A DNA stretch of 64,000 nucleotides, taken from the IMG/VR virus record IMGVR_UViG_3300031612_000002, positions 53,471-117,470 of that record; one strand, given 5' to 3'. The DNA is from a virus. This document shows positions 1,478 to 53,604 of the stretch, piece after piece. Below the pieces are notes generated by a model that worked only from the letters and a program-made list of their open reading frames with translations, was not told the DNA's origin and did not search any database. The position numbers were made by a program, and so were the translations under genes. Numbering within the stretch: the first letter of the stretch is position 1; each line of letters starts with the position of its first letter.

Positions 1478-2917
1478 ATGAAAGAATATTATGCGGATTT
1501 ATATGCGAATAATCCAACTCACACTTTACGAAATGACGATGCTATTGCATTATCTGCTAACGGCAATGAAATCACATATGCTGAATTTAATAAGAGGATG
1601 AAAGAAGTTGCGTCTAATCTAGCAGATGCTGGTATCACCGATAAACATCGCGTCTTGGTAATCGCAGAGGAATCAGATATGATATCCTCTGTGGTACTAG
1701 CATGGGCTGCGATGTATCTGGATGCTAGTCCGGCTAATACAACAAGTTTACAGAGTAATAGGGAAATTGATATAAAGCGACGATCAGCTAATTGTAGTGC
1801 TGTGTTATGGGTCGATGGTACTATCGATATATGCGCAGATCTGAAAAATATTACTAAATCACATACAGGAGAGAAATCTGTATATTTTAGTAGTGGTACC
1901 ACTAGAACAGACGGCGATCTGTATTCAATGGTACCCGGCAGATATACATACCAGACTGACTACGAACGAGGTGCCGCAATAATAGATGAAATTATTTTAG
2001 CAAATAATATGCTTGGCGACGAGTATACACAACTTGTAACAGTATGTAGTTCATCATGGGACGTAGCATGGACGCCTCAGATAGTAACCAAATGCTTATT
2101 AACTGGAGGATCCTTTCATTGGGTACAGACTGATAAAGAAGTTCCTGCCGCACATGCGAAATACAAGGCAAATATGATGTCTGTCTATCCGAGTCAAGCT
2201 CATCGACTATGCGAATTTGAATATGATTCTCCAATAGATTACATTGATATCTCTGGTGGTGTAGTATCGAGCGATTTAGTTGAAAGTATACAACGAACAA
2301 TGAAACCCCATACAATATGCGACTGGTTCGGGACTGTAGGTACAGGCGTTATGCTTTGTAATGTAATCAAAGAGGGTGCTACTCGTGGTGATTGGTTTAC
2401 TCCATTCACGGACACAAACTTGAAAATGAGATTAACAGACAGCGGTGTAATTTGGTCGTGTCGAGGAACTGAATGGCATTCTGATAATGATGTATTTGAA
2501 GAAAAAGATGGAAAATATAGATATACCGGACGCACGAGTGAAGAATTTATATCGTTTGGAGGAGGGAAGATCTATCCTTGGGAAGTTGAAACTTACATAC
2601 GAGAGTTATCTATAGCAGAAGCGACCACTACTGATCAGGTATACGTATTTCCCATGAACGGATTGAACGACTACGACAGACATGGATTGGTATATAGCGG
2701 CGATCTAAGCATCGATATGGTAGGAGATATGGTCACACAACTAACCAAATACAAGCGTCCAGAGCAAATATTCCAAGTGTCGCATGAATTTTGGGGACTG
2801 TATCTTAAAGTCGGAAGAAATAGTATGGCAAGTCGTTTAAAAGCACACCCTGATCATATATTGCATACAATTCATACGCACATGCTCGTCAACAAGATAA
2901 TTAATAATGGCGACTGA
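1478..2917 (+). CDS. AMP-forming acyl/aryl-adenylate synthetase (ANL superfamily)
   Basis: 479 aa, close to the usual ANL length. Family motifs appear in order: the ATP P-loop YFSSGTTRTDG (about 138-148), an A5-like WFGTVGTGV (about 283), the hinge region YTGRTSEEFISFGGGKIYPWEVE split around residue 350, and a C-terminal LKVGRNS that may supply the A10 lysine. ANL enzymes activate a carboxylate as an adenylate and often pass it to CoA or a carrier thiol; the substrate cannot be read here. The hinge has E-E-F where many members have a charged D-x-x-K. SD AAGGAAC precedes ATG 1478. No partner carrier protein is nearby. Confidence 0.8.
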   Translation: MKEYYADLYANNPTHTLRNDDAIALSANGNEITYAEFNKRMKEVASNLADAGITDKHRVLVIAEESDMISSVVLAWAAMYLDASPANTTSLQSNREIDIKRRSANCSAVLWVDGTIDICADLKNITKSHTGEKSVYFSSGTTRTDGDLYSMVPGRYTYQTDYERGAAIIDEIILANNMLGDEYTQLVTVCSSSWDVAWTPQIVTKCLLTGGSFHWVQTDKEVPAAHAKYKANMMSVYPSQAHRLCEFEYDSPIDYIDISGGVVSSDLVESIQRTMKPHTICDWFGTVGTGVMLCNVIKEGATRGDWFTPFTDTNLKMRLTDSGVIWSCRGTEWHSDNDVFEEKDGKYRYTGRTSEEFISFGGGKIYPWEVETYIRELSIAEATTTDQVYVFPMNGLNDYDRHGLVYSGDLSIDMVGDMVTQLTKYKRPEQIFQVSHEFWGLYLKVGRNSMASRLKAHPDHILHTIHTHMLVNKIINNGD

Positions 2918-3892: not shown

Positions 3893-4440
3893 TGAATTTA
3901 TTCATACTTGATAACGACCCTACCAAGGCAGCCCAACTACAATGTGATAAGCATGTAGTCAAAATGATTTTAGAGTCAGCACAGATGTTGTCTACAGTTC
4001 ATCGTATGTTAGATGGTAAGTTGTACACAGCCCCATCTAATTCTGGCAAGCGCATGGTAAAGAAATGGTCACATCCCATCCATGACGATGTATTGTATAA
4101 AGCGGTACATATGTATCATCCGTGTACTGAGTGGACACTTGAATCGGACAGCAACTATCAATGGCATTATGCTCATTTCATTGCATTATGTGACGAATAC
4201 ACGCATCGCTATGGAAAAGTACATGCATCAGATACTAAACTACGTACAGTACTTAAATCAATTCCTACCAATATCGTAAGCAAATCAAAGACTGAATTCA
4301 GGCTTGCGATGCAATCTAATCCAGAATGTATACATCCTGGCGATGCGGTTAGATCGTATCGCGAGTACTATATGACTAAGCAATCTAGATTTAAAATGAC
4401 ATGGACAGGTCGTTCAATGCCTACATGGTTTATATCTTAA
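3892..4440 (+). CDS. Conserved phage protein, possibly pyrimidine-dimer-glycosylase-like
   Basis: 182 aa. Features recalled from a family found in many T4-like phages are an N-terminal DKHVVKMILESAQMLSTVH, then HPCTEWTLESDSNYQW, and YTHRYGKVH. Members are sometimes annotated as related to pyrimidine dimer DNA glycosylase, but similarity to T4 DenV is not obvious by eye, so the enzymatic call is weak. Conserved His, Lys and Trp residues suggest an enzyme acting on nucleic acid (inference). Confidence 0.55.
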   Translation: MNLFILDNDPTKAAQLQCDKHVVKMILESAQMLSTVHRMLDGKLYTAPSNSGKRMVKKWSHPIHDDVLYKAVHMYHPCTEWTLESDSNYQWHYAHFIALCDEYTHRYGKVHASDTKLRTVLKSIPTNIVSKSKTEFRLAMQSNPECIHPGDAVRSYREYYMTKQSRFKMTWTGRSMPTWFIS

Positions 4441-4458
4441 TTAATATGGAACACACTA

Positions 4459-4851
4459 ATGATAATTTCTGATACGTTGATGGATGCAGTACAATCATTT
4501 TATGCATCTTGCAAGACTGAACTTGGTGACGAGTTTGGTGGCGATCAAGCATTGTCGATGTTTGACGCATTAGATCCATCTATACGAGGATCTATGTTAA
4601 TGACTATGTTCTCTGGAGACAGTACAAAACATGCGACATTAAAATATGATAATACGCGAGGTGACGAAGATACTTATATTTCTTCAATCAAGGCACTTCG
4701 CATGGTATTTGGCTGGGAATTGAGAACCGCCAAATCCGCAGTTGATACAGCAAGAGATTATGGTCAATATGATTTGGGTATAACAGATCGTGCCCAGCGA
4801 ACGAAATTATCTACCGCGTTATCGTCATCAGCATGGCATATTAGGGATTGA
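4459..4851 (+). CDS. Hypothetical protein with ribosomal L7/L12 C-terminal-like helix-turn-helix
   Basis: 130 aa. Residues about 76-100 (IKALRMVFGWELRTAKSAVD) match the shape of the L7/L12 C-terminal domain core, in which an I-K-x-h-R segment leads to G-x-x-L-x-x-A-K-x-x-V-D. The rest is unrecognised. Several phage proteins carry this motif; a role in contacting host translation factors is inference. The next promoter overlaps its last codons. Confidence 0.6.
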   Translation: MIISDTLMDAVQSFYASCKTELGDEFGGDQALSMFDALDPSIRGSMLMTMFSGDSTKHATLKYDNTRGDEDTYISSIKALRMVFGWELRTAKSAVDTARDYGQYDLGITDRAQRTKLSTALSSSAWHIRD

Positions 4852-4876
4852 CAAACACGCATAATCATAGTATAAT
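4848..4876 (+). promoter_or_regulatory. Sigma70-type promoter for queC
   Basis: TTGACA 4848-4853 and TATAAT 4871-4876, spacer 17 nt. The -35 box overlaps the stop of the preceding gene. The queC ATG is 24 nt past the -10 box. Confidence 0.85.
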
Positions 4877-4899
4877 GATTTAACAATTAAGAGGCATTT

Positions 4900-5640
4900 A
4901 TGAAATTAAACGAAGTACTGAATACATTACCTGATACGGACAAAGTCGTTATTACACACAGTGGTGGACTTGATAGTTCAACTGCTGTTATTATTGCTGC
5001 ACACAAATACGGCGCTGAAAATGTATTCTCAGTTGGTTATGATTACGGACAAAAGCAGCGAGTAGAATTAGATCGCGCAGCACAGTTATGTGAGAAACTT
5101 GGTGTTCATCGTCAATTGTTTGATCTTTCTATTCTAGGTGAAATTGCAAAACCTATGAGTGCAAACATTGCGGGCACTGATGTAGTAATGCCGACTATTC
5201 AAGATGTATTAGGTGAACCACAGCCTTCGACATATGTGCCATATCGTAATATGATCTTATTTTCATTGACTGCTGCATATGCAGAAGCGATGGGTGCAGA
5301 ATATGTATTTGCTGGTATTCAAGCAACTGATGCATATGGTTATTGGGATACTACGCCTAGTTTTGCAGACGCATTGAATAATGTAATGAGTATGAATCGT
5401 AATTGTCCTGTACAATTGGTAGCACCATTTAATACATTGACCAAAGATGAAGAGATTGCATTATTAGAGGAACTTGACTTAGTACATTTATACGAGTATA
5501 CATTGACATGTTACGATCCTGATATTGATGGTAAGTCATGTGGTGTATGTCCTAGTTGTGCAGAACGTATCAAAGCATTCATGGATAGGTCTATTGCAGA
5601 TCCTATTGAATACCAAATACAGATTCCTTGGAATGTGTAG
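4900..5640 (+). CDS. queC: 7-cyano-7-deazaguanine (preQ0) synthase QueC
   Basis: 246 aa, full length. QueC uses ATP and ammonia to convert 7-carboxy-7-deazaguanine to preQ0. The PP-loop SGGLDSSTA lies at about residues 21-29. The C-terminal zinc site has four cysteines at about 204, 214, 217 and 220 (CGVCPSC). SD is AAGAGG. In phages this enzyme usually belongs to 7-deazaguanine DNA modification rather than tRNA queuosine. The next gene, an amidotransferase, overlaps it by 8 bases, pointing to a joint reaction. FolE, QueD, QueE and a DpdA-type transferase are not in this window. Confidence 0.93.
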   Translation: MKLNEVLNTLPDTDKVVITHSGGLDSSTAVIIAAHKYGAENVFSVGYDYGQKQRVELDRAAQLCEKLGVHRQLFDLSILGEIAKPMSANIAGTDVVMPTIQDVLGEPQPSTYVPYRNMILFSLTAAYAEAMGAEYVFAGIQATDAYGYWDTTPSFADALNNVMSMNRNCPVQLVAPFNTLTKDEEIALLEELDLVHLYEYTLTCYDPDIDGKSCGVCPSCAERIKAFMDRSIADPIEYQIQIPWNV

Positions 5641-6232
5641 TATTTTTGGTAGTTATAATGTAGCAGAGTTTAACGAGTTAGCGAACTTAAATTCACATCG
5701 TGGGCAACATTCGTTTTCTACTGCTACATACGATGGTGAAGTGCTAGATGTAATTGAGAAGAGTTTAGGTAAATTTAAGTCACAAGAACTTGATACAGGT
5801 AATTTGTATATTGGTCATGTGCAGTCGCCTACAACTAATGCACGATCAATTGCATCAGTGCATCCGTCAGTGATTGATGGTACGTTGTTATGGCACAATG
5901 GTATTATCAAAGAGACACAAATGAGGAAATGGAATTATCATGATAAATGGGACACTGCGTGTTTGCATAAGTATATTTCCAGTGGGTTAGATAAGTTGGG
6001 TGATGTAGATGGTTCATTTGCTTGTGTCTATTATAAAGAAGGTAAGTTGTATATTTGGCGAAATGAGAATTGTCCGATGTTTGTAAATGGTAGTAGTTTT
6101 TCGTCAGTAAAATTTAAGAACGCTGTACGCATAGAAGCGAATATTGTATATAAGTTAGATGGTAAAAACTGGGTAAAAACTGATAAAGCATTTACAACGA
6201 AAAATACATTTTATTGGTCGCCAGCAGCGTAA
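5633..6232 (+). CDS. Class II glutamine amidotransferase (Ntn) domain protein, QueC partner
   Basis: 199 aa. The start at ATG 5633 gives MCSIFG, putting a cysteine at position 2 as the N-terminal nucleophile of class II (GATase2) domains. SHRGQHS and the LLWHNGII segment fit the glutamine-binding part of the fold. A longer upstream frame through queC would bury the catalytic cysteine and is rejected. Archaeal and some phage Gat-QueC proteins fuse these two domains for archaeosine synthesis; here they are separate overlapping genes. It probably feeds amide nitrogen to preQ0 or a preQ0-DNA product (inference). Followed by a strong terminator. Confidence 0.8.
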   Translation: MCSIFGSYNVAEFNELANLNSHRGQHSFSTATYDGEVLDVIEKSLGKFKSQELDTGNLYIGHVQSPTTNARSIASVHPSVIDGTLLWHNGIIKETQMRKWNYHDKWDTACLHKYISSGLDKLGDVDGSFACVYYKEGKLYIWRNENCPMFVNGSSFSSVKFKNAVRIEANIVYKLDGKNWVKTDKAFTTKNTFYWSPAA

Positions 6233-6260
6233 GGATAAATAAACAGCATAGTTTATATTT

Positions 6261-6294
6261 AAAGCCTCTTAATTCGCGTTAAGGGGCTTTTTTT
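6261..6294 (+). terminator. Rho-independent terminator after queC-GAT
   Basis: A 12-bp stem AAAGCCTCTTAA / TTAAGGGGCTTT with one G-U pair and a 6-nt loop is followed by a run of T. It ends the queC operon just before the next promoter. Confidence 0.9.
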
Positions 6295-31969: not shown

Positions 31970-34612
31970 ATGAGTTATGTCGACGGGTTAATTGATCGTG
32001 ACAAGGATATCATTCATGTGGTGGAACGTGTGAATGGTGTCCGTCGTTTTCTTGAATATCCTGCGCATCATACATTGTACTATCCGTCACCGAAGGGAAA
32101 ATATACTTCGATCTTTGGTGATTCGTTAGAGCGAGTGGTGTGTAATTCTGGTCGTAAATTTGCCGCAGAGAAGAAGTTGCATCATCGTAAAGGTTTATTT
32201 GAGAGTGACACAAACCCAGTGTTTCGATGTCTCGCAGATAATTATCTTGATGCTGAACCACCCACACTCAACGTAGCATTATTCGATATCGAGACAGACT
32301 TTAATAAAGAGATAGGTTATGCGCCGCCAGATGATCCGTTTAACGCGATTACTGCTATATCGGTGCATATGAGTTGGATGAAACAAACAGTGTGTTTGGC
32401 AATCAAGCCTAGTACAATGACTGAGGAAGATGCACAAGCGATTGTTGATAGGTTTGACAATGCTATCTTGTGTGAGACTGAAGAGTCAATGTTGATATCA
32501 TTCTTGGAGTTAATTCAAGAAGCAGATGTGTTGACGGGTTGGAACAGTGAGGGATTTGATATTCCGTATACAGTAAATCGTATAGCGCGTATATTGAGTA
32601 AGAGTCACACACGACAATTATGTTTATGGGATCAGTTTCCAAAGCAGAAAGAAGTTGTTAAATACGGAAAAGAAACACAGACATATGATTTGATTGGTCG
32701 TATACATCTTGATTATCTTGAATTGTATCGTAAATATACATATCACGAAATGCACTCATACTCATTGGATGCTATATGTGAATATGAATTAGGTGATCAA
32801 AAGGTTGAATACGAAGGAACACTAGATCAATTATACCATAATGACTTTTTTAAGTTCATTCAGTATAGTATACAAGATGTTGACTTGATGGTTCGATTAG
32901 ATGAGAAACTTCAATTTATTGATTTGGCAAATCTTATTGCACACTCAAACACTGTTCTACTACCAACAACAATGGGATCAGTTGCACAGATTGATCAGGC
33001 AATCATTAATGAAGCACATGCAAACGGTTTAATTGTACCTGACAAGAAGCGTGGAGAAAAGCCTATTGCAGCAGCAGGAGCGTATGTAGCAACTCCTGTG
33101 AAGGGTGTTCATAGAGACATCGCATCAATTGACTTGAATTCATTATATCCGTCTATCTTGCGTGCATGTAATATGTCTACCGAGACAATTATTGGTCAGA
33201 TAAAGCACACACATACTAGACAGATGCTTGAAGAGCATGACTTAAACGTACCAAAGGCTTGGGAAGGTAGATTTGCTTGTATAGAATATGAAATGGTTAT
33301 GGAAAAGAACACCACGTCATTACTGACACTTGAATTTGAAGATGGTACTGCTCATACTTTATCTGGTGCAGAAATCTACGAACTTGTATTTGAAAGTGAT
33401 CAACCTTGGATACTTACAGCAAACGGTACATTATTCACACATGAGAAGAAAGGCATTGTTCCACAATTGCTTGAAACTTGGTATGCAGAACGAAAGGTAC
33501 TACAAGCAAAAGCACGTGATTCTCGCGATGAAGGTGGCGATAAATTTGCATATTGGGATAAACGACAGTTAGTTAAAAAGATCTTGCTTAACTCATTGTA
33601 TGGTGCCCTACTAAACCCTGGATCTCGTTTCTTTGATGAGCGATTGGGTCAGTCGACTACACTGACAGGTCGTTGCATTGCTCGACATATGTCTGCGAAA
33701 GTGAATGAAGTTATTGCTGGTGAATACAATCACGTAGGTAAATCTATTGTATATGGTGATACTGACTCTGCGTACTTTAGTGCATATCCTATCCTAAAAG
33801 ATCAAATCGAAGATGGTTCGATTAACTGGGATAAAGATACAATGATTGCGTATTACGATGCGGTATGCGAAGAGGTTGATACTTCTTTTGCTAAATTCAT
33901 GCAAGACACATTCCATGCTACACACGCGTTAGGAACGATCATCGCAGCGGGTCGTGAAGTTGTTGCGAGTTCTGGTCTCTTTGTAAAAAAGAAGCGTTAT
34001 GCACTTATGGTGATTGACGACGAGGGAAAGCGAACTGATGTAGATGACAAGCCCGGCAAAATCAAAGCGATGGGACTTGACTTGAAGCGTAGTGATACAC
34101 CTAAGTTCATGCAAGAGTTCTTGAAAGAGATTCTTGAAATGGTACTAACCAGTGTTGACGAGCCTATCGTAATAGATCGTATTGTGGCATTCCGTAGTGA
34201 GTTCAGGGCAATGGATAGTTGGCAGAAGGGTACACCTAAGCGTGTAAACAACTTGACTAATCATACAAAGAAATATAATAAGATTGGTAAGTGTGGTGTT
34301 GGTCATGCGATGGCAGCAATCAATTGGAATCGTTTGAAACATATCAATGATGATGCATATAGTATTGATATCACTGATGGTATGAAAACGATTGTGTGTA
34401 AGTTGAAGAAGAATCCGATGGGTATGACTAGTATTGGTTATCCTACTGACACTAAGCGTATTCCTGATTGGTTTAAAGAACTACCATTCGATGATGGATT
34501 AATGGAAGAAACTATTATCACCAAGAAGATTGAAAATCTAATCGGTGTGTTGAAATGGGATTTGCAATCAGCAGCAGCGAATAACACATTCTCTGATTTA
34601 TTTGAATTTTGA
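31970..34612 (+). CDS. 43: Family B DNA polymerase (T4 gp43-like)
   Basis: 880 aa, close to T4 gp43. The exonuclease domain shows FDIETDF (about 105), NSEGFDIPYTVNR and YSIQDVDLMVRL. The polymerase domain has DLNSLYPSILR (about 388), KILLNSLYGALL (about 537) and YGDTDSAYFS (about 594) with both metal-binding aspartates. All catalytic motifs look intact, so it is an active proofreading replicase. Starts immediately after the DsbA-like stop. Confidence 0.97.
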   Translation: MSYVDGLIDRDKDIIHVVERVNGVRRFLEYPAHHTLYYPSPKGKYTSIFGDSLERVVCNSGRKFAAEKKLHHRKGLFESDTNPVFRCLADNYLDAEPPTLNVALFDIETDFNKEIGYAPPDDPFNAITAISVHMSWMKQTVCLAIKPSTMTEEDAQAIVDRFDNAILCETEESMLISFLELIQEADVLTGWNSEGFDIPYTVNRIARILSKSHTRQLCLWDQFPKQKEVVKYGKETQTYDLIGRIHLDYLELYRKYTYHEMHSYSLDAICEYELGDQKVEYEGTLDQLYHNDFFKFIQYSIQDVDLMVRLDEKLQFIDLANLIAHSNTVLLPTTMGSVAQIDQAIINEAHANGLIVPDKKRGEKPIAAAGAYVATPVKGVHRDIASIDLNSLYPSILRACNMSTETIIGQIKHTHTRQMLEEHDLNVPKAWEGRFACIEYEMVMEKNTTSLLTLEFEDGTAHTLSGAEIYELVFESDQPWILTANGTLFTHEKKGIVPQLLETWYAERKVLQAKARDSRDEGGDKFAYWDKRQLVKKILLNSLYGALLNPGSRFFDERLGQSTTLTGRCIARHMSAKVNEVIAGEYNHVGKSIVYGDTDSAYFSAYPILKDQIEDGSINWDKDTMIAYYDAVCEEVDTSFAKFMQDTFHATHALGTIIAAGREVVASSGLFVKKKRYALMVIDDEGKRTDVDDKPGKIKAMGLDLKRSDTPKFMQEFLKEILEMVLTSVDEPIVIDRIVAFRSEFRAMDSWQKGTPKRVNNLTNHTKKYNKIGKCGVGHAMAAINWNRLKHINDDAYSIDITDGMKTIVCKLKKNPMGMTSIGYPTDTKRIPDWFKELPFDDGLMEETIITKKIENLIGVLKWDLQSAAANNTFSDLFEF

Positions 34613-34614
34613 TA

Positions 34615-34764
34615 ATGTTTCCTAAGCACGAACAATATAGGTATCTTTATATTCTACGCTCCCATTGGTGGAATATTCAGATTACTTGTTGGTTATACAA
34701 ATACAATGCAATACAAGAGGTAAAGAAATGGAAAGAACAATTTTTGAAACAGAACACAATCTAA
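34615..34764 (+). CDS. Possible small ORF between polymerase and acyl-CoA dehydrogenase
   Basis: ATG 34615 follows the polymerase stop (TGATAATG) and runs 49 codons, ending inside the start of the dehydrogenase in another frame. Product is Tyr/Trp/Lys-rich (MFPKHEQYRYLYILRSHWWN). It has no SD of its own but could be coupled. It may only be leader sequence of the next gene. Confidence 0.25.
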   Translation: MFPKHEQYRYLYILRSHWWNIQITCWLYKYNAIQEVKKWKEQFLKQNTI

Positions 34765-35873
34765 TCCGAGATGCAGTGCGTAGTTTTGCGACTGAGCATA
34801 TTGCTCCATTCTATGAGCAATGGGAAGAAGATGGTCAAGTAGATCGTGAAATGTGGCGTAAAGCAGGTGAAGCGGGATTATTATCACCTAATGTATCAGC
34901 AGAGTTTGGTGGAATGGAAGCAGATTTCCGAGTCAACGCTGTCATCGGTGAAGAACTATCAGCGATGGGATTTATTAGTCCAGCGGTAGGTTTTAGTATT
35001 CATTCGGATATCACTGTTCCATATATAATGAATTATGGTACACAAGAACAAAAAGAAAAATATCTTCCGGGATGTATTACGGGCGATATTGTATTAGCAC
35101 TTGCTATGTCAGAACCAGCAGCAGGATCAGATTTGCAAGGTATTAAAACGACAGCAGTAAAAGATGGCAACGATTATATATTGAATGGTTCTAAAGTATT
35201 CATTACTAATGGTCAACATGCTGATCTAGTGTTAGTAGTTGCAAAGACTGATTCGACAGCGGGCGCAAAGGGAATTTCTCTATTCTTAGTAGAAGCAGAT
35301 AGTGTCGGATTCTCTCGTGGTCAGAACTTGAAGAAGATCGGATTACATTCGCAAGATACTTCTGAATTATTTTTTGATAATGTTCGCGTTCCAGTAGAGA
35401 ACCTATTGGGAAGTGAAGGTATGGGTTTCATTATGCTTATGAGTGAATTACCAACCGAGCGTATGTCAGTATCGGTAGGTGCTATTGCATCAGCACAGTC
35501 TATTCTACAGCAGACTATTGCATATACAGCAGAGCGTAAAGCATTTGGCAAACCTATTGCAGTTTTTCAGAACACTCAGTTCAAGTTAGCAGAAATGGAT
35601 ACTGACATTACAGTAGCACAAGTGTTCGTTGATCGTTGTCTTGAACTGTTAGTAGAAGGTAAGTTAGATGATGTTACGGCAGCAAAAGTAAAGTTGATGA
35701 CTTCTGAACTACAATGTAAAGTGATTGATGAGTGTTTACAATTACATGGTGGTTATGGATATATGATGGAATATCCAGTGGCGAGAGCATTCCTTGATTC
35801 ACGCGTTCAGCGTATATATGCAGGCACGAGCGAGATTATGAAAGTAATAATTTCTCGTAATTTATTTTCATAA
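34728..35873 (+). CDS. Acyl-CoA dehydrogenase (FAD)
   Basis: 381 aa, full length from ATG 34728 behind AAGAGG. FAD/CoA motifs: LALAMSEPAAGSDL (about 125), ELFFDNVRVP and QLHGGYGYMMEYP. At the C-terminal position where MCAD/SCAD have the catalytic Glu (Y-E-G) it has YAGTSEIM. A Glu in ELPTERM (about 244) matches the alternative base used by long-chain and isovaleryl types, so it is predicted active. It would oxidise an acyl-CoA at alpha-beta and needs ETF from the host. An odd enzyme for a phage; lies between DNA polymerase and MoxR. Confidence 0.9.
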   Translation: MERTIFETEHNLIRDAVRSFATEHIAPFYEQWEEDGQVDREMWRKAGEAGLLSPNVSAEFGGMEADFRVNAVIGEELSAMGFISPAVGFSIHSDITVPYIMNYGTQEQKEKYLPGCITGDIVLALAMSEPAAGSDLQGIKTTAVKDGNDYILNGSKVFITNGQHADLVLVVAKTDSTAGAKGISLFLVEADSVGFSRGQNLKKIGLHSQDTSELFFDNVRVPVENLLGSEGMGFIMLMSELPTERMSVSVGAIASAQSILQQTIAYTAERKAFGKPIAVFQNTQFKLAEMDTDITVAQVFVDRCLELLVEGKLDDVTAAKVKLMTSELQCKVIDECLQLHGGYGYMMEYPVARAFLDSRVQRIYAGTSEIMKVIISRNLFS

Positions 35874-42396: not shown

Positions 42397-43647
42397 ATGA
42401 AAAACACATTCGTAAATAGAAAAGATCTACCTACCTGTTTAGCACCTTGGCACGCATTAACTGTTAAATGGGGTGGTAACGTCATCCCAGACATTATCTA
42501 TAAAGGTAAATTAGGTAATATTGGTAAGCAATCATTGCGTGAAATACTAGAGGGAGATGCATACACTGAATTGAGAGAATCACATCGTAAGCGTGAGATT
42601 CCAGAATCATGTCAGGGTTGCGTGAAGAAAGAGAAAGTTGGGCGCAGTCGTCGTTTATATTTCTGGGATAGAATTGATCATGAAACAAAGGTTGCGAGTA
42701 AAGATCTTACAGTAGATTCTGTTCCTGATATTAGGTATCTTGATTTTACTCTTAGTAATAAATGTAATCTAGCATGTATTCATTGTGATCCGTTCGTAAG
42801 TACAGGCTGGACTAAAGATGGTAAATCTCTTAATAGAGAAAAGCCAGAATATTGGAGTAAACAGCCAATAGGTTATCATGGTGCAAGTATAGACTTCATG
42901 GATAATCTATTTAAGAATCCAGAGTATTTTCGCAATCTGCAATGGGTGGCACTGCGTGGTGGTGAGCCGTTGTATGATGAAATCTGTTTATCAGTATTGC
43001 AATGGTTTGTAGACAATGGTATTGCAAGTAGCGTATCATTAGACATCAGTACAAATGCAACCGTATTCAAAGAAGAATTTAGAGAATTATTCAGTCACTT
43101 TAAGCATGTAGAATTATTAATTAGTGTAGAAGCAACTGATGAATTATATAGTATTATTCGTGGCGGTCCTAGTTACACATGGGATCAATTGAACGAGAAC
43201 ATAGAAAAATTCTACGATATCCCAAATGTAGAGGTAGTGTTTGCTGTTACGGTAATGATTACCAATATATTTAATTTAGATAAAGTCTGGGAATGGTTTG
43301 CTACCCATCATGCGCATCGTGCAAGTATTTCGATGAGTAACGTGGTAGTTCATCCTGGCTATTTGAATATAGGAAATATGCCAGAAGAGTTGAAAGCATT
43401 GGCGTATGATAAAATAAAGCATATCCCTAATTTAGAAATGTGGCCACTTACTAGTGCAAACTCAGATGAAGGTGGATATCAGACAGGTATTGAATCCATT
43501 CGTAATGGGTTAATGTTATCAAACGAAGATGATCAAGAATCTGATAAGCAATGGAATTGGTTTCTAAGGTACACTGACGATTTAGATAGATTACGAAAAA
43601 CAGAAACATTGCAGTATATACCAGAAATCGAGAGTTATGTCAGATAG
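42397..43647 (+). CDS. Radical SAM protein 1 (N-twitch-like)
   Basis: 416 aa. Core motif CNLACIHC (about 126-133) binds the SAM-reducing 4Fe-4S cluster, and ALRGGEPLYD is the SAM-contact GGE motif. The N-terminal region has CLAPWHALTVKWGGNVIP at about 12-29 and CQGC at about 72-75. It lacks the double cysteine after the glycine strand that other copies have, so its auxiliary cluster may differ. The barrel strands DISTNAT and LISVEATDE are visible. Product chemistry unknown. Confidence 0.88.
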   Translation: MKNTFVNRKDLPTCLAPWHALTVKWGGNVIPDIIYKGKLGNIGKQSLREILEGDAYTELRESHRKREIPESCQGCVKKEKVGRSRRLYFWDRIDHETKVASKDLTVDSVPDIRYLDFTLSNKCNLACIHCDPFVSTGWTKDGKSLNREKPEYWSKQPIGYHGASIDFMDNLFKNPEYFRNLQWVALRGGEPLYDEICLSVLQWFVDNGIASSVSLDISTNATVFKEEFRELFSHFKHVELLISVEATDELYSIIRGGPSYTWDQLNENIEKFYDIPNVEVVFAVTVMITNIFNLDKVWEWFATHHAHRASISMSNVVVHPGYLNIGNMPEELKALAYDKIKHIPNLEMWPLTSANSDEGGYQTGIESIRNGLMLSNEDDQESDKQWNWFLRYTDDLDRLRKTETLQYIPEIESYVR

Positions 43648-43888
43648 TGCAACTTGCACATTTGTAGTAACAAACGATGGTATCGTGATCGTACATCATA
43701 GAGAATATTGCGGCTACATATACGACGATGAGTGTATATGGCATAATGAGATTGGACCTGCGGTTATATGGCCTGATGGTCACGCTGCATGGTGGATTGA
43801 TGGAATTAATTATACATTCAATGAATGGGTTACTCTAGTTGACCTACCAGATGAAGAAATATTTTTATTAAAGATGGCATATTTATAA
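43637..43888 (+). CDS. Small phage protein with GPA-WPDG motif, 83 aa
   Basis: WHNEIGPAVIWPDGHAAWW then GINYTFNEWV follows a MORN-like H-x-x-x-GPA-x-x-W-x-D-G-x-x-x-W-x-x-x-G pattern that I recall from many phage proteins. Overlaps radical SAM gene 1 by 11 nt and the next ATG by one base. Function unknown; small enough to be considered as a substrate candidate. Confidence 0.6.
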   Translation: MSDSATCTFVVTNDGIVIVHHREYCGYIYDDECIWHNEIGPAVIWPDGHAAWWIDGINYTFNEWVTLVDLPDEEIFLLKMAYL

Positions 43889-44151
43889 TGATAAAACGAC
43901 AATATATAAAAACGACAGAAGACTTCAAAGACAATATGGGTGCTAATAACGATTTAGTTATACTCACATATTCGGATGAAACAATTACAGACAAATATAG
44001 TGTTACACTTAGTGGTACAACAAGTGAAATAGTATTTGAATCTATATTTAATGATTACGATGAAGCGAGAGATTTCTTTATGCTCGTTGTAAGCGCACAT
44101 CCTATTACATTTGATAATGCAATAGCACTAGGACTAACAAGGAATACATGA
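43888..44151 (+). CDS. Hypothetical protein, 87 aa
   Basis: Thr/Asp-rich, beta-like (LVILTYSDETIT, VTLSGTTSEIVFES) with a C-terminal helix. Sits between radical SAM gene 1 and the aminotransferase-like gene, overlapping both neighbours. No recognised domain. Confidence 0.6.
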   Translation: MIKRQYIKTTEDFKDNMGANNDLVILTYSDETITDKYSVTLSGTTSEIVFESIFNDYDEARDFFMLVVSAHPITFDNAIALGLTRNT

Positions 44152-45065
44152 TGAGTAACAACCCAGATTTCGGTAAGACAGGCAACAGTATTTGGAATCA
44201 ACCATTTATTGACTATATACAAGATGAAGTATTGCCAAATATGAATTTGGCAGAAGTGGGTACAGCACCAGCAGAATTCTTAGAATTATATCCCAAATGG
44301 ATACAAAGCAGCAAATTAAATAACTTTACTGGGTTAGATACATATCCTGATCGTTATGTTAGTTTAGGTACTACACAAGCATTAGAATGGTGGCAGTATT
44401 GGTGCATCGCTACTGGACAGAACTTAAAGGTGTTCCGTGGTGAATATCCGTATAACCGTGATGTATGGTTGGGACCAGAAATGAATTGGTCAGATAGCAT
44501 TGACGATACTGGGTTATCCGTAGGTGATGCGGTTATCGTTAGTATTCCATTCAGTGGTAACGGACGCAAGCACGAGCGATGGGATTGGTTGATTGAAGAG
44601 TGTACAGCAAAGAATATTCCTATTCTGGTAGATTGTGCATGGTTTGGAACTTGTTTTGATATTGATGTTGATTTGTCACATGATTGTATTAAGATGGTTG
44701 CATTCAGCACTGGTAAAGGATTAAGTGGTGGTAACTGGCGTGCTGGTATTGTGTTCAGTCGTTTAGATGAAGAGCGTTGTGGTATGCGAGTGCAGACAGA
44801 ATGGAATCACGGTATTCATTTGAATGTAGCATTGTCTAATGCGTTAATGAAAAAGTTCAGCCCAGATACTATGCCTAACAAATATAGAGAAGCACATAAA
44901 ATTGTATGTGAACATTATGGATTGCAAGAGACTAATACGATACATATTGCCCAAGCACCTGATACACCAGAATGGGATATGTTCCATCGTGATCGCGCAT
45001 ACAATCGCATCAACTTAGCGAAAGCACTAAAGAGGTATAAAAATAATGGCAAATTTGCCGAGTAA
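44148..45065 (+). CDS. PLP-dependent aminotransferase-like protein (fold type I)
   Basis: 305 aa. VSLGTTQALEWWQYW fits the N-terminal phosphate-binding region. IPILVDCAWFGTCFD has the PLP-contacting Asp. AFSTGKGLSGGNWRAGIVF has the Schiff-base Lys in the S-x-x-K-x-L/F pattern. Shorter than typical class I enzymes (about 380-400) and lacking most of the C-terminal domain. Might install an amino group in the pathway of the surrounding radical SAM enzymes. Tandem ATGs at 44148 and 44151. Confidence 0.72.
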   Translation: MMSNNPDFGKTGNSIWNQPFIDYIQDEVLPNMNLAEVGTAPAEFLELYPKWIQSSKLNNFTGLDTYPDRYVSLGTTQALEWWQYWCIATGQNLKVFRGEYPYNRDVWLGPEMNWSDSIDDTGLSVGDAVIVSIPFSGNGRKHERWDWLIEECTAKNIPILVDCAWFGTCFDIDVDLSHDCIKMVAFSTGKGLSGGNWRAGIVFSRLDEERCGMRVQTEWNHGIHLNVALSNALMKKFSPDTMPNKYREAHKIVCEHYGLQETNTIHIAQAPDTPEWDMFHRDRAYNRINLAKALKRYKNNGKFAE

Positions 45066-46179
45066 CGCTTGTGCATATCCGTTCAAAGCAGCAATGCTTG
45101 CAAACGGTACTCCCGCTACACCATGTTGTAAATTTCATGATCGTTACTTATCTGATGATGATAACAAGTATGTGTTTAAAGATATTCGCGAGACGATGTT
45201 AAGGAACGAATGGCATGAGGGTTGCTGGAAATGCAAAGCCGATGAAGATACTGGTCTTACTAGTATGCGAACAGAAGCAGACGAATTCTTTGATGATTTC
45301 ACAGATTCAATCCAATTAGAATATCTAGAGATTACAGTGGGCAATCTATGTAATCTTGCATGTGTTGGTTGCGGACCTGAGTATAGTCATACATGGGATA
45401 AAGACGCACTAGCGATTGATTTAGTGATGGTTGAAGTATTAGAACATTTTGCAAAGAATAGAGAATATGATTTAGATGCACTATCCATGGATCAACTATC
45501 TCATTTGAAATATATGAAAGTGACAGGTGGTGAGCCGTTCATGCATAAGCAGTTTTTACGATTCATTAAACGATTGGTAGATAGTGGTATTGCACCTCAG
45601 ATCGATATTGAGATATTTACGAATTGCACATACTGGCCAGCGAAGATGAACTTAGATTATCTATTAGAATTCAATAACTTGCGAATTACGAATAGTATAG
45701 ATGCAGTTGGCGAATTAAACGATATATTACGTCACCCATCCAAATTCCCTGCTATTGAATCTGTACTGAAGCAATGGACAGAATTGGGAACTAAATACGA
45801 CAAGGTAGAAGTATTTGTCGCTTGCACAGTTGGTGTATTAAATGCACCAGTGTTAATAGATCTAATGAGATGGGCAAGATTTGAGATAGGTGTACCAGTA
45901 ATGTTACAGACTATACATGAGCCTGATTGGTTGAGTATTGCGCATCAGACAGATACATATAAGAATAATTTGAGAGCGATAGTAGAAGAGCAATACAAAG
46001 ACTGTCACTGGAAATTAAAGAAAGCATATACATTATTAATTTCATTATGTAAAACAAATAACGCACCAGATAATAGTGAAATTTATTTAGATCAAATGCA
46101 CGAATTGTTTGATTTACGTAATAATGATGCAGAAGAATATATACAAGGATATAAGAAATTATTAAATGAAAGATATTAA
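45046..46179 (+). CDS. Radical SAM protein 2 (N-twitch)
   Basis: 377 aa. N-terminal auxiliary cysteines C9, PCC (about 25-26), and CWKC (about 62-65); core CNLACVGC at about 101-108; GGE motif VTGGEPFMH. The order C...PCC...CxxC-core is that of radical SAM proteins with an N-terminal twitch domain. Overlaps the aminotransferase by 20 nt and the next radical SAM gene by 14 nt. Confidence 0.9.
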   Translation: MANLPSNACAYPFKAAMLANGTPATPCCKFHDRYLSDDDNKYVFKDIRETMLRNEWHEGCWKCKADEDTGLTSMRTEADEFFDDFTDSIQLEYLEITVGNLCNLACVGCGPEYSHTWDKDALAIDLVMVEVLEHFAKNREYDLDALSMDQLSHLKYMKVTGGEPFMHKQFLRFIKRLVDSGIAPQIDIEIFTNCTYWPAKMNLDYLLEFNNLRITNSIDAVGELNDILRHPSKFPAIESVLKQWTELGTKYDKVEVFVACTVGVLNAPVLIDLMRWARFEIGVPVMLQTIHEPDWLSIAHQTDTYKNNLRAIVEEQYKDCHWKLKKAYTLLISLCKTNNAPDNSEIYLDQMHELFDLRNNDAEEYIQGYKKLLNERY

Positions 46180-47392
46180 TGAACTAGCAAAAACAACATC
46201 ATTTTGTATGATACCATTCATGCATACTTACGGATCAGCGGGCGGCGATATAGTACCTTGCTGTGAAGCACAAACTAAGATTTTCAATGAGCCGGGTGCT
46301 GCTATTGAAGACACATGGAATAATGACAACTACAAAGAACTTCGTAGGGCACTCACTAGCAATGAGATACCATCAGAGTGTGATGTATGTTGGCATAATG
46401 AAGCAAGTGGTGTTGTATCAAATAGACAGCAATGGTTTGACGATGATTGGGATAATTATAAAGACTTGATCAAACTCAATGATGATTACTCTGTAGATAA
46501 TCCACCATTGTGGATAGAGTTGAAGGTTTCTAACTTCTGTAATTTGAAATGTATTATGTGTAGTACACATAGTTCGTACAAGCGCGTACAGGACTTAGAC
46601 ATCATTGAGAAGTATATGGGTACAGAGCATCACGAAACACGTCTCCTACGACCAACTACGTTGTTTGATAGCATAGGCAAATGGGATGGGTTCTGGGATA
46701 CAGTTAAAGTATTACAATTCACTGGTGGCGAACCTATCATTAATCAAGAGCATTACGACTTACTTGAATCGATACCAGAGCATCTACGATCTACGATCAA
46801 ATTGCGATATGCTACTAATCTGAGTCATCTAACATTTAAAAAATATAATTTGCTAGAAATTTGGAGTCAATTCAAGCATGTTAATATCAAAGTATCACTT
46901 GATGGTGTCAATGATGTTTATGATTACATTCGTGAAGGTGGTGATTGGAGTACAGTAGAATCTAATCTGAGTGTATTGAATGACATAGAGCATATAGACT
47001 TAGCATTGGGTATTACTATACAAGCACATAATATATTTCAGATGCCAGAATTTTATGAATACTGGAAGCAGAGTGACATTGAATTGACATTCATTACTGC
47101 TAACATATTACATACACCAAAGATACTAAGCCCAGCGATATGGCCTGAGCCTTATAGATCGGCTATTATTAATAAATTACGAAAGCATGAAAAAGAACAT
47201 CCAGAGATGGATACATTTGCTACTTATATGGAAAATAATCAACGAGATTATATACAATATACTAAGATGCGTAAGTACACACGTGATTTAGAAAATAGAT
47301 ACAATCCTAAGATTAAATTAAGTGAGATGATAGAACAATATCTTGATATGCCACTTACTGATTTTTTAATAGACATCAATAATGATATATAA
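46166..47392 (+). CDS. Radical SAM protein 3 (N-twitch)
   Basis: 408 aa. N-terminal FCMIPFMHTYGSAGG, PCC and CDVC auxiliary cysteines; core CNLKCIMC (about 126-133); FTGGEPIIN. TIM-barrel strands VSLDGVND and the C-terminal helical segment are complete. Related to copies 2, 5 and 6 by the same cysteine layout but with different spacing. Overlaps the next gene by 11 nt. Confidence 0.9.
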   Translation: MKDINELAKTTSFCMIPFMHTYGSAGGDIVPCCEAQTKIFNEPGAAIEDTWNNDNYKELRRALTSNEIPSECDVCWHNEASGVVSNRQQWFDDDWDNYKDLIKLNDDYSVDNPPLWIELKVSNFCNLKCIMCSTHSSYKRVQDLDIIEKYMGTEHHETRLLRPTTLFDSIGKWDGFWDTVKVLQFTGGEPIINQEHYDLLESIPEHLRSTIKLRYATNLSHLTFKKYNLLEIWSQFKHVNIKVSLDGVNDVYDYIREGGDWSTVESNLSVLNDIEHIDLALGITIQAHNIFQMPEFYEYWKQSDIELTFITANILHTPKILSPAIWPEPYRSAIINKLRKHEKEHPEMDTFATYMENNQRDYIQYTKMRKYTRDLENRYNPKIKLSEMIEQYLDMPLTDFLIDINNDI

Positions 47393-48080
47393 GTACGACG
47401 ATGTAGACGCTCATAAAGTGGAAATGGAAATAACTACATATTGCAATGCAAGATGTAGACGGTGTCCACGTACTAATCCTGATACTGGTGAACCTGTTGA
47501 TTGGTTAGTACAAGAGCATATGTCGCTTGAAACATTTAAAATGATTTTTTCCAGCGAATATAATGTATCTAATAAAGTACGATATGTTAAGTTATGTGGA
47601 CAATATGGTGATCCCATGATGAATCCGCATATTAATGAAATGATGGAATATGTGTTAGCAGATGAAGATAAAGATGTATCTATGATTATAAGTACCAATG
47701 GAGGTCTTAGAAATGCTAATTGGTATGCAACAATTGCTAAAAAATATTCTGGAAGACTGAGTATTATATTTGGTATTGATGGATTAGATCATGATACTAA
47801 TTGGAAATATAGAGAGGGTGTAGTATTTGATAAGGCATATGCCAATATGCGAGCGTTTAATGATAATGATGGTGAGACGCGATGGCAGTTTATATTATTT
47901 GAATGGAATATACATCAAATAGAAGAAGCATATTTACACGCAGGTGAACTTGATATCGAGATGAATTTTATAGTAGATCTTGAATATGCAATGCGTTTGC
48001 GTGAACGCGACGAGCATCACGTAATAGAAGAATTAAAGCAGCGATTTCAAAATCTAGGAGTACGGTATGAAGGAATCTAA
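47382..48080 (+). CDS. Radical SAM protein 4, short, core only
   Basis: 232 aa. Core CNARCRRC (about 20-27) near the N-terminus, then KLCGQYGDPMMN where others have GGEP, and ISTNGGLRNANW. There is no N-terminal cysteine region and no C-terminal SPASM. The next gene, overlapping by 14 nt, has SPASM-like cysteines, so the two may be halves of one enzyme. Confidence 0.85.
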   Translation: MIYKYDDVDAHKVEMEITTYCNARCRRCPRTNPDTGEPVDWLVQEHMSLETFKMIFSSEYNVSNKVRYVKLCGQYGDPMMNPHINEMMEYVLADEDKDVSMIISTNGGLRNANWYATIAKKYSGRLSIIFGIDGLDHDTNWKYREGVVFDKAYANMRAFNDNDGETRWQFILFEWNIHQIEEAYLHAGELDIEMNFIVDLEYAMRLRERDEHHVIEELKQRFQNLGVRYEGI

Positions 48081-48402
48081 TAAAAATAACATTGAGTGTA
48101 TAGTCGCATGTGAGACAAAAGACGATAAAGTGAAGCGCCAATTTGAGATAACTGTAGCGGGCAGGGTCTGGCCATGTTGTTATTATGCTACTGAACTAAA
48201 AAAGTCTTCCAATAGTCATGTTGATCTTACTGATACCGTATTGGATAAACTTAATGAAGAAGATCCTGATTGGAATAATGCTGTAGTACATGGAGTCGAA
48301 AATGTAACGAAGCATAATTTATTTTGGACATATCTATGGGATGAAGGATTTGATAGTGATAATCCACCAACAGTTTGTTCCTATTTTTGTGGGAATAAAT
48401 GA
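48067..48402 (+). CDS. SPASM/twitch-like auxiliary-cluster protein, 111 aa
   Basis: Contains C14, VAGRVWPCCYYA (about 31-42) and a C-terminal VCSYFC. The G-x-V-x-P-C-C strand is what SPASM and twitch domains have just before their cluster cysteines. There is no radical SAM core motif. Interpreted as the detached auxiliary-cluster domain of radical SAM protein 4 (inference from overlap and cysteine pattern). Confidence 0.6.
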   Translation: MKESNKNNIECIVACETKDDKVKRQFEITVAGRVWPCCYYATELKKSSNSHVDLTDTVLDKLNEEDPDWNNAVVHGVENVTKHNLFWTYLWDEGFDSDNPPTVCSYFCGNK

Positions 48403-48432
48403 ACATATGAAATCAGACGATAAGGACGAAAA

Positions 48433-49992
48433 ATGAAGAAAGGACAGAGTCTGTGGAATTATTATCATGGAGAAAATTCATGGCCAATAGTTCACGCATT
48501 CAATTCAAATAACACTGATAGTATTGAATTAAGTGACACACCTATATTAAAGCAAAAGTTACGTGAAATAGCAGAGGTAGAACATAATAATCATCTTCGG
48601 GGAGGCATAGTTAACATTGTAGGACAATCCGAAATTAGTTGGATGATCGCTATGCGCAAATTAGGATATCGTTATGCATGTATGTGGTTTGACGGCACTT
48701 GGTCAGCATCTGATGATGTTAACTTAAAATTACTTGATGAAATAAATCGTATTAATGAAGAATTTGATATCACTAAATGGATAGTTGCAGGAAATATATT
48801 ACAAACCGATGATGAAAGATATTCTCATTTTGAAAGAAACATCATACTGATTAATTTAGATACGTGGTATGAGCAAGGTGCACAAGATCCCGCTGATGTA
48901 TTATACAATCAAGATCCCGCAGATCGGTATTCTCGTCAAGGTACACGACATGAAAAGCCAAGTGACAATTGGGTTACTAGAAAACAAGGAATAGTTGAAG
49001 ATTTTGAGGATAGTTTATTTGGTATTGTAAAACTTGGTGGTGCACGATTAAATATCAAACATGCTACATGGAATACGTGGATAACACACGAAGAATTTAA
49101 TGAACAATACCATCATAAATTGTGCAATCCGTTATTGACATGGTCATTGCGACAAGAACTAATTGTCCCAGGATTGAGTGCAGATTTTATGAATTGTTTA
49201 GCCACGATGAAGCCGCATGTTGGTTCAATTGAATTTGAGAAGGCTATACAAGGTTTACCGTTTGACAGTGATAAACTAACATTTCAAGCAAATCGAATGA
49301 TAAGAGAGATGTTCGCACCAGATAGTCCTATATATTTTGTAAATACAGAATCTAGTCAGCCTGGTATTGCAGAACAAATTGAAGGAACGGTATTTGATCA
49401 ATATGTTGGTGCAACTGCGGGCTTTAAATTATTCTACTATGCATACAAGTATGGTTTTACAAAAGACACGAAATTTGTGTTATATGATTTTGATCCATTG
49501 AGTTGTAAATTCAAACGAGATATGTTAGAACAATGGGATGGTATAAACTATCCTGAGTTTGTCGATGCATGGATTGAACAGCATCCAGATGCAAATGGAA
49601 ATTTAAGAGATTTGACTTTTGAGAGATGGCCAAACGTAATACAGCAATTTGATGGAGATACTAATTGGTTATCAGTATGGGATAGAATCAGACAGAGCAA
49701 CTGGGAAGTAATTGAATGTGATTTAATATATGGACATGATAAATTATTTGAAGCAGTAGAAAATAAAAGAACATTGATGTGGACATCTAATATCTATAGT
49801 TATATTGTGCCAAAGATGCTTAGTAAACCGTTTGCAATGGAATTGAGTTTCATTAGTTTAATAACTAAATTAAATGAATTGCATGATGATTGTTGGTTTT
49901 CGGGCACTGATATAAACGATAACGACTTAACATGTCCATCAAGGGCTATTATAAGTACAACCAATAATGAAACATTAACATTTGAACAATAG
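48433..49992 (+). CDS. Large unknown protein of the radical SAM array, 519 aa
   Basis: SD AAGGAC region before ATG 48433. Alpha/beta with LRGGIVNIVGQSEISWMIAM near residue 55, which might be a nucleotide- or SAM-binding turn, and KFVLYDFDPLSCKFKRDML near residue 355. Many Trp, Asp and Tyr; no signal peptide or membrane helix. The glycine turn and D-x-D could fit a methyltransferase or glycosyltransferase fold but neither is convincing. Confidence 0.65.
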   Translation: MKKGQSLWNYYHGENSWPIVHAFNSNNTDSIELSDTPILKQKLREIAEVEHNNHLRGGIVNIVGQSEISWMIAMRKLGYRYACMWFDGTWSASDDVNLKLLDEINRINEEFDITKWIVAGNILQTDDERYSHFERNIILINLDTWYEQGAQDPADVLYNQDPADRYSRQGTRHEKPSDNWVTRKQGIVEDFEDSLFGIVKLGGARLNIKHATWNTWITHEEFNEQYHHKLCNPLLTWSLRQELIVPGLSADFMNCLATMKPHVGSIEFEKAIQGLPFDSDKLTFQANRMIREMFAPDSPIYFVNTESSQPGIAEQIEGTVFDQYVGATAGFKLFYYAYKYGFTKDTKFVLYDFDPLSCKFKRDMLEQWDGINYPEFVDAWIEQHPDANGNLRDLTFERWPNVIQQFDGDTNWLSVWDRIRQSNWEVIECDLIYGHDKLFEAVENKRTLMWTSNIYSYIVPKMLSKPFAMELSFISLITKLNELHDDCWFSGTDINDNDLTCPSRAIISTTNNETLTFEQ

Positions 49993-50002
49993 GAGATAAA
50001 TT

Positions 50003-50758
50003 ATGTGGTTTGAAGGATCACCTTTAGATAGGGAAGAAATTGATGATGAATCAATTATATGGCATGAAGAAAATAGAATTATTAAACCTGATTTTAAAAT
50101 ATTAGATGCAGGGAATTTTTTAGAAGAAAGTGAGCACGATGTTGATTACATCATGGACAATACCCGTTTTCCATATATATCGATACCAGAAATTAATGTA
50201 CCACACAAGGATTTGTTTGAAGAAGCAAATAATTTGTTATATACGTCATGCTTTACTGCACACCGTCCTTGTAGTTCGGGGTGGTTGAGTTTGTCGATTC
50301 ATGGAATAAGCAGTGTACATACTAATTGTGCAGAAGATTATAACTTACCAGATGATTATGAAGAAACCCATAGTGACTGGACTGATATTGCTAAATTTTG
50401 CCCTAAAACAGTACAATGGATGCAAGATGAAATGTTGTACAACCAGTTTGCTCGTGTAAGGTTCATGGCACTGTTACCAGATGGTTGGTTGGGCATTCAC
50501 AACGATAGACCTAATCCAGTTGGAGTAGGTGCAACTAATGTAGCATTAAACAATCCAGATGGATGCGAATTCGTATTTGAAGGTATGGGTATTGTTCCAT
50601 TTGAAGCAGGTTCAGTGATGAAATTGAATACAGGATATAAGCATTCTGTATGGAATAAAAGTGAAGAACCAAGGATACATATGATCTTTGATGGTGGTCC
50701 TAGTGATGAATTTAAACAACAGGTGAATCGCGGCTATGCCAAAATGCTTGGCGTTTAA
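50003..50758 (+). CDS. 2OG-Fe(II)/Asp-Asn hydroxylase-like protein 1
   Basis: 251 aa, SD TAGGAG. The C-terminal half is a double-stranded beta helix: FMALLPDGWLGIHNDRP has the iron-binding H-x-D, NNPDGCEFVFEGMG and FEAGSVMKLNTGYKHSVWN have the distal His, and EPRIHMIFDGG the Arg for 2-oxoglutarate. It resembles aspartyl/asparaginyl beta-hydroxylase-type enzymes. Probably hydroxylates the product or protein target of the array. Overlaps radical SAM gene 5 by 23 nt. Confidence 0.72.
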   Translation: MWFEGSPLDREEIDDESIIWHEENRIIKPDFKILDAGNFLEESEHDVDYIMDNTRFPYISIPEINVPHKDLFEEANNLLYTSCFTAHRPCSSGWLSLSIHGISSVHTNCAEDYNLPDDYEETHSDWTDIAKFCPKTVQWMQDEMLYNQFARVRFMALLPDGWLGIHNDRPNPVGVGATNVALNNPDGCEFVFEGMGIVPFEAGSVMKLNTGYKHSVWNKSEEPRIHMIFDGGPSDEFKQQVNRGYAKMLGV

Positions 50759-51668
50759 ACATGCAGTAACGATAGGCGTAACAGGCGAAGTTAGACCATG
50801 CTGTGCTTGGAATGCGGCATCATCTGGTGTTGCAATTACCGATGATTGGGAATCGTTGCACAACAAATACTATGTTGAGTCATTGCGAGGTTGGTTGCCT
50901 GAATGCATAGAGTGCCAACAAGATGAAGAATCAAATGGTAAGAGTTATCGAATGTATATGAATGATGTACTAGCAGATAGCATTGGCACAGAGCAATGGG
51001 ACTTAAAGATTAACAACACGTGTAATCTCACGTGCGTCTCATGTGATAGTTATAGTTCAAGTTCGTGGGCAGTAAAAACTGGTAAGCGCAAAGCAAATAC
51101 AGGTTGGCACAAAGATATTGAGCAGATATACCCACAATTGCATTTTGCAAAGATTCTTAAATTTACAGGTGGTGAACCATTCATGATACCACAAGTAAAG
51201 AAGATAATTAAATATCTGATCGATGCAGACGTTTCATCTACGATTGAATTACAATTCATTACTAATGGAACAATAGATATTAATGCATATTATCCCTTGT
51301 TCGAATCGTTTAAACGTGTTATAATAGTTGCAAGTGTAGATGCCATAGGTGAGCGTTTTGAATACCTTAGACGAGGAGCAAACTGGGAACAAGTAAGTAA
51401 TAATATCATTGACATACACAAGAGTTCACCTGATAATACGAGTATATGTATTACGTGTTTACCAAGTGTACTAAATATTAATAACATTCACGAAGTGAAT
51501 GATTGGGCGACAAGTCACGATATTCACTTCAATAGAGCGAGTGATTTGATTAGTCCCGCATACATGGCTCCGGGTGCATTGGATGATCAAGATAATAAAC
51601 AACAATTGATTGATCATGTAATGATACTAGATGATAGTGATGGCAAAGATTATACAAAATGGATTTAA
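50736..51668 (+). CDS. Radical SAM protein 5 (N-twitch)
   Basis: 310 aa. C4, RPCCAW (about 20-25) and CIEC (about 57-60) are the N-terminal cluster; core CNLTCVSC (about 91-98); FTGGEPFMI. Shorter at both ends than copies 3 and 6 but with complete core strands. The start may be a little upstream, since the first cysteine is only four residues in. Confidence 0.88.
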   Translation: MPKCLAFKHAVTIGVTGEVRPCCAWNAASSGVAITDDWESLHNKYYVESLRGWLPECIECQQDEESNGKSYRMYMNDVLADSIGTEQWDLKINNTCNLTCVSCDSYSSSSWAVKTGKRKANTGWHKDIEQIYPQLHFAKILKFTGGEPFMIPQVKKIIKYLIDADVSSTIELQFITNGTIDINAYYPLFESFKRVIIVASVDAIGERFEYLRRGANWEQVSNNIIDIHKSSPDNTSICITCLPSVLNINNIHEVNDWATSHDIHFNRASDLISPAYMAPGALDDQDNKQQLIDHVMILDDSDGKDYTKWI

Positions 51669-51672
51669 ACCA

Positions 51673-52893: not shown

Positions 52894-52999
52894 TCAGATT
52901 CTATGCCCATATTGTGGTACCTACGTTGACGATATGCCACACCGATGTACAAAAGAAATATGGACGTTGCGTCCAGTAGTAAAAAGGAAAGTAAAGTGA
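52880..52999 (+). CDS. Small zinc-ribbon-like protein, 39 aa
   Basis: ATG 52880 behind AAAGGA inside the end of radical SAM gene 6, to TGA 52999. CPYCGTYVDDMPHRC gives a C-x2-C...H-x2-C zinc knuckle, followed by a basic tail (RPVVKRKVK). Overlaps the next GTG start. Too short for a function call. Confidence 0.5.
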   Translation: MTITNQILCPYCGTYVDDMPHRCTKEIWTLRPVVKRKVK

Positions 53000-53595: not shown

Positions 53596-53604
53596 GGAAT
53601 AATT

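Follow-up and report, generated by a model that had tools for sequence, protein, structure and literature searches.

Canonical QueC (E. coli, PDB ID: 2pg3; B. subtilis, PDB ID: 3bl5; phages Dp-1 and KurtStettler) is an enzyme of ATP pyrophosphatase fold with an SGGxDS loop, a zinc-binding Cys motif and the motif YPDCR or YPDCT, and it uses free ammonia. Elsewhere, ATP pyrophosphatases of the N type are joined to a glutaminase, as in asparagine synthetase B, GMP synthetase and glutamine-dependent NAD synthetase; in asparagine synthetase B the glutaminase is of class II and is fused to a synthetase different from QueC, with a different product. A class II amidotransferase is likewise combined with QueC in the Gat-QueC fusion of Enterobacteria phage 9g, Providencia phage PSTCR7 and archaeal homologues, a single chain with the Gat domain first, which is thought to convert the nitrile of preQ0 to the formamidine of G+. 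The DNA of phage 9g contains dG+ (PMC6884629). For phages KVP40 and 6E351A, the published pathway lists together name QueC, QueD, QueE, FolE, DpdA and QueF, and a Gat gene is in neither list (KVP40, PMC8056088; 6E351A, PMC12028318).

The locus described here was found in 64,000 nucleotides (the window) of a marine phage, taken from IMG/VR record IMGVR_UViG_3300031612_000002. It brings together the same two enzyme classes, but unfused, on two chains with QueC first. The two-gene unit is compact, spans window positions 4848-6290 and consists of the following elements:

4848-4876, + strand: promoter TTGACA-N17-TATAAT, matching the sigma-70 consensus at 12/12 positions
4900-5640, + strand: queC, predicted preQ0 (7-cyano-7-deazaguanine) synthase subunit, 246 residues, with YWDTT and an intact C-terminal zinc Cys motif
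5633-5640, + strand: overlap of the QueC and Gat reading frames, 8 nt
5633-6232, + strand: predicted stand-alone class II glutamine amidotransferase (Gat, phrog_12378), 199 residues, ATG at 5633
Residues of Gat: nucleophile Cys2, oxyanion Asn89-Gly90, WD107T, and Gln64 replacing the usual Arg
6261-6290, + strand: intrinsic terminator closing the two-gene unit

Reading frames, profile matches and the flanking promoter and terminator confirm the description given in an earlier sequence-only reading, namely QueC followed, with an 8-nt overlap, by a 199-residue protein with Cys at position 2, on separate genes in the order QueC-Gat and under their own promoter and terminator. The overlap suggests translational coupling of the two genes. 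A longer, TTG-started frame at 5525-6232 was rejected as a mechanical extension; relatives of Gat begin at Met-Cys. Perfect TTGACA-N17-TATAAT sites occur 13 times in the window, against 0.05 expected, and since the site upstream of queC is one of these it looks like the standard host-type promoter of the phage. The 13 sites are spread from 3615 to 60822 and several have a common spacer start, AAGTAAGGCT. Values of dN/dS calculated against sister contigs were 0.11-0.13 for QueC and 0.12-0.18 for Gat, indicating purifying selection on both genes, which, together with their conservation in hundreds of contigs, argues against a chance arrangement. In two of the sister contigs (L012 and L014) identity to the window is about 68% for Gat versus 93-96% for QueC, and dS is several-fold higher for Gat (1.3-1.9) than for QueC (0.24-0.31); this lower conservation and higher dS of Gat suggest that queC was recently exchanged or converted between lineages.

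The first protein was assigned using the Pfam QueC profile (E=1.5e-51), PDB entry 2pg3 (E=6.5e-29) and NCBIfam TIGR00364, for which its score of 166.8 bits passed the curated equivalog cut-off of 150.3. The features shared with canonical QueC include the PP-loop motif SGGxDS (SGGLDS at residues 21-26) and the C-terminal Cys4 zinc motif (C204, C214, C217 and C220). Its match to phrog_1550 (1.1e-62) was stronger than that to phrog_10428, a family of fusion length (1.2e-16). The YPDC motif of lone QueC is replaced by YWDT. Seven lone phage QueCs carry YPDCR or a similar motif, the E. coli enzyme has GYPDCR and two Gat-QueC fusions have YPDNE, while WDT or WDC was present in 122 of the 129 Gat-associated QueCs among the best-matching loci. 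The lone phage QueCs that were examined have no adjoining amidotransferase, unlike the QueC of the window. Because YPDC is no curated defining feature of the family, membership of QueC stands, as a distinct subfamily.

The second gene of the pair is annotated elsewhere as a hypothetical protein, a nucleophile aminohydrolase or a generic hydrolase. No match to Pfam was obtained for Gat, but it matched phrog_12378, a family of unknown function (4.7e-39), and NCBIfam purF (1.1e-5), and a profile of the Gat family matched the glutaminase domain of GlmS (3.1e-6). An AlphaFold (AF2) model with a pLDDT of 93.6 was compared with known structures using Foldseek, yielding PurF (8.5e-9) and GlmS (1.5e-8) in addition to EgtC and AsnB. 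(PDB sequence matches between P0002 and designed 'Cake' proteins were discarded as repeat artefacts.) The nucleophile Cys2, which follows the initiator Met and would be exposed by its removal, was present in 214/214 copies of Gat, and an alignment of 82 members showed R23, H62, Q64, P66, T67, H77, P78, W87 with the adjoining HNG (N89, G90), W106-D107, R143 and N144 to be invariant, so that the Asn-Gly oxyanion site in HN89G90 and the catalytic Asp in WD107T are conserved. By its modelled fold and its catalytic core Gat is thus predicted to be a class II glutamine amidotransferase, an assignment that does not assure glutamine as the substrate. The presence of such an enzyme beside QueC, which had been proposed from Cys2, is supported by the PurF and GlmS profile matches and the confident GATase2 fold.

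The invariant Gln64 aligns to the Arg of HTRWAT in GlmS. In PurF and GlmS the Arg at this position binds the carboxylate of glutamine, and with Gln64 in every member of the family, glutamine may not be the donor used by Gat. This invariant Gln64 where Arg is expected, the proximity of the fold to EgtC, an Ntn hydrolase but no ammonia donor, and the alteration of the QueC motif in step would all suit a non-glutaminase, in which Gat is an Ntn amidohydrolase acting on another substrate (a 7-deazaguanine amide or another donor amine) as the partner of QueC in the formation of an uncharacterised base. This is considered unlikely, given that the remaining glutaminase catalytic residues are kept and that the measured bases of two members are already known (PMC12028318, PMC6884629). 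Lower still is the probability given to co-evolution of YWDT and Gln64 for a non-glutamine donor, or for an undescribed 7-substituted 7-deazaguanine that would then be processed by QueF/DpdA.

The distribution of Gat was determined using tblastn, which identified the gene in 55 phage records, 49 of them Vibrio phages, including KVP40, nt-1, 1.081.O and 2.275.O, and also in Pseudomonas phage pf16. Gat lies directly 3' of queC in all five records inspected (nt-1, pf16, 2.275.O, 1.081.O and 6E35.1a), and at least 295 IMG/VR contigs encode it. Pairing with the QueC subfamily is obligate or nearly so: among the best-matching IMG/VR loci, which are samples containing related, non-independent contigs and several duplicates of one population, QueC lies just 5' of Gat in 121 of the 121 with enough upstream sequence, overlapping or abutting it without a gap in 78, and Gat was found 3' of the subfamily in 70 of 71 (the script counted 68; in two more loci, both of the window phage, the long TTG-started frame of Gat lay beyond the overlap limit). 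This recurrence across phage and IMG/VR contigs ruled out a one-off feature. Only four Gat matches were obtained among 84,980 cellular genomes; all four are on draft-bin contigs of 10-21 kb that also encode QueC and pathway genes and therefore probably represent phage, and a cellular origin of Gat was rejected. Pairwise distances of QueC and Gat were correlated (r=0.66, partial 0.45), more highly than for any other pair among QueC, Gat, QueF and FolE, a weak indication of interaction since shared ancestry contributes. The predicted amidotransferase is thus specific to viruses and tied to a distinct QueC, both in viral contigs numbering in the hundreds and in KVP40 and nt-1; it is missing from the pathway lists of open papers, on which the novelty of the assignment was judged.

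The same two genes, adjacent and in the same order, are present in KVP40, nt-1, 6E35.1a, pf16 and 2.275.O, with identities to the window pair of about 45-53% for QueC and about 33-40% for Gat. Similarity to the Gat of the fusion was by contrast limited to a remote profile match (E=2e-5). In the fusions of 9g and PSTCR7, Gat retains the Arg that is Gln64 in the window, and QueC carries YPDNE where the window QueC has YWDTT and belongs to phrog_1550, not phrog_10428. The sequence-only reading had termed the locus a split Gat-QueC; with Gln64 against the Arg of the fusion and WDT or WDC against its YPDNE, it is more readily understood as a class II amidotransferase and a QueC that were brought together independently, and derivation of Gat from the fusion was ruled out by the residues and profiles.

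The formamidino or amide base that had been expected from the pair also sits poorly with the DNA chemistry of phages carrying it. In phage 6E351A, which was taken to be record MW824377 '6E35.1a' (gene order queD-folE-DpdA2-queF-queC-Gat), 15% of dG is a base with a mass consistent with dPreQ1 (PMC12028318), and the DNA of nt-1, in which QueF was not found, contains mainly dPreQ0 (232 per million nucleotides), with dADG (72) and traces of dG+ (44) (PMC6884629). Neither phage has archaeosine as its main base, and the presence of Gat and QueC is by itself a poor predictor of archaeosine. A two-subunit archaeosine synthase, in which Gat and QueC would aminate the preQ0 nitrile, free or in DNA, to G+, would share its enzyme classes with Gat-QueC and would account for the dG+ of nt-1, traces that leave amidine activity possible. 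It is nonetheless improbable: nt-1 has a fifth as much dG+ as dPreQ0, 6E35.1a carries dPreQ1, the preQ0-consuming QueF is present in many of the same operons, and the key residues of both subunits are unlike those of the fusion.

It is instead considered probable, though well short of certain, that QueC and Gat constitute a two-subunit glutamine-dependent preQ0 synthase. The dPreQ1 of 6E35.1a is a preQ0-derived base that can be reached without amidine chemistry, Gat is a class II amidotransferase by profile and fold with invariant catalytic residues, and its near-obligate pairing with a QueC of special motif, together with the co-occurrence of QueF, points the same way. Gat, its N-terminal Cys acting as nucleophile after removal of Met, would free ammonia from glutamine and pass it to QueC within a physical complex, and QueC would use ATP to convert 7-carboxy-7-deazaguanine via the amide to preQ0. 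In the relatives, preQ0, or preQ1 after the action of QueF, would then be swapped for guanine in DNA by DpdA2 or a DpdA3-like enzyme. Synthesis of preQ0 could strictly do without a glutaminase, since canonical QueC runs on free ammonia, and the motif of the paired QueC, unlike that of preQ0-making QueC, could mean another product. The pair would probably let the phage build preQ0 from glutamine, rather than archaeosine; phrog_12378 thereby gains a concrete, testable function, and the pair provides a clean test of whether phages switch an enzyme from dependence on ammonia to dependence on glutamine.

The proposed link to 7-deazaguanine metabolism is upheld by the gene neighbourhoods of the relatives, in which Gat clusters with FolE, QueD and QueE, often with QueF and sometimes with a YhhQ-type transporter; QueF co-occurs with QueC-Gat in many loci, including that of 6E35.1a. 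The genomes of KVP40, nt-1, 6E35.1a, pf16 and 2.275.O add FolE, QueD, QueE or QueF and mostly DpdA2, whereas only QueC-Gat was found in the record containing the window. Among the best-matching loci, 85 had at least 3.5 kb of upstream sequence; DpdA2 was present in 19 and DpdAx (phrog_19058, a PHROG of unknown function) in 60, never both, and neither was present in six, five of which are the window phage and its sisters. For DpdAx a TGT fold is predicted with confidence (TGT, 2.2e-8; DpdA 7ui4, 5.5e-6), with relatives in Campylobacter CP220 and Flavobacterium immuto phages. Its candidacy as a new family was dropped, as it matches Campylobacter CP220 and a gene of a Flavobacterium phage that already bears the name DpdA; presumably it is the DpdA3 subfamily of Cui et al. 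2023. The Pfam TGT profile is blind to both DpdA2 and DpdAx, and its negatives are uninformative for both; the ArcS gene of nt-1 reported by Hutinet et al. was not located with this profile. A compact example of DpdAx, 265 residues long, is encoded at 4247-5044 of locus L018, and the gene lies beside FolE in about 60 loci. Flavobacterium phage immuto has a cluster of FolE, QueD, QueE, QueF and a DpdA3-like gene, with no QueC and no Gat within the stretch read, which fits Gat going with QueC.

The window is part of a 117,470-base IMG/VR contig. The DNA polymerase of this record has its nearest relatives in phages of 348-490 kb, 2.275.O among them, and the closest named relative of the window QueC is that of 2.275.O, so that the record probably covers only part of a jumbo genome, perhaps about a third. 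Searches with BLASTP/phmmer and iterated HMMs found no FolE, QueD or QueF in the 117-kb record or the searched sister contigs, and no YhhQ in the record. DpdA2 and a DpdA3-like gene were likewise absent from the record and the searched sister contigs, as was TGT from the record, while for QueE the record gave only radical-SAM cross-matches, none clearly QueE. Hence of folE, queD, queE and dpdA, for which a genome check had been advised, none was clearly found in this probable fragment. A phrog_887 search of the record was uninformative, as none of its controls was matched. With FolE, QueD and QueF absent from the record, the 7-deazaguanine precursor may be supplied by the host or by the missing part of the genome.

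In the 349-kb genome of 2.275.O (L008), FolE, QueD, QueF, a QueE-like gene, a YhhQ-type transporter, QueC and Gat were identified, and no DpdA2 or DpdA3-like gene was found; a candidate novel transglycosylase, or use of the pathway for tRNA, is possible in this phage. Extended to the window lineage, the latter would mean that QueC-Gat serves queuosine in host tRNA and not DNA modification, as might be read from the jumbo relative and from the lack of FolE, QueD, QueF and a known transglycosylase in 117 kb. This is thought very unlikely, since the record is probably a fragment in which no tRNA genes were found, a diverged transglycosylase could escape the searches, and most relatives with the same pair have DpdA-type genes.

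Several further features of the genome were recorded. A second, diverged ATP pyrophosphatase of 222 residues with a QueC-type zinc motif is encoded at 34406-35074 of the genome (15406-16074 of L004); sister contig G004 lacks it at the corresponding place and has a QueC-like frame (72373-73035) next to a radical-SAM gene. An AMP-binding (acyl-CoA synthetase-like) enzyme of 479 residues, without a PHROG match and unusual for a phage, is encoded at window positions 1478-2917. Window positions 42397-56258 hold a cluster of seven or more radical-SAM proteins, several of which contain SPASM or twitch domains, together with unknown proteins and one resembling Asp/Asn beta-hydroxylase; some proteins of this cluster show weak similarity to viperin, and its gene content has the look of an island for modifying peptides, glycans or nucleotides.
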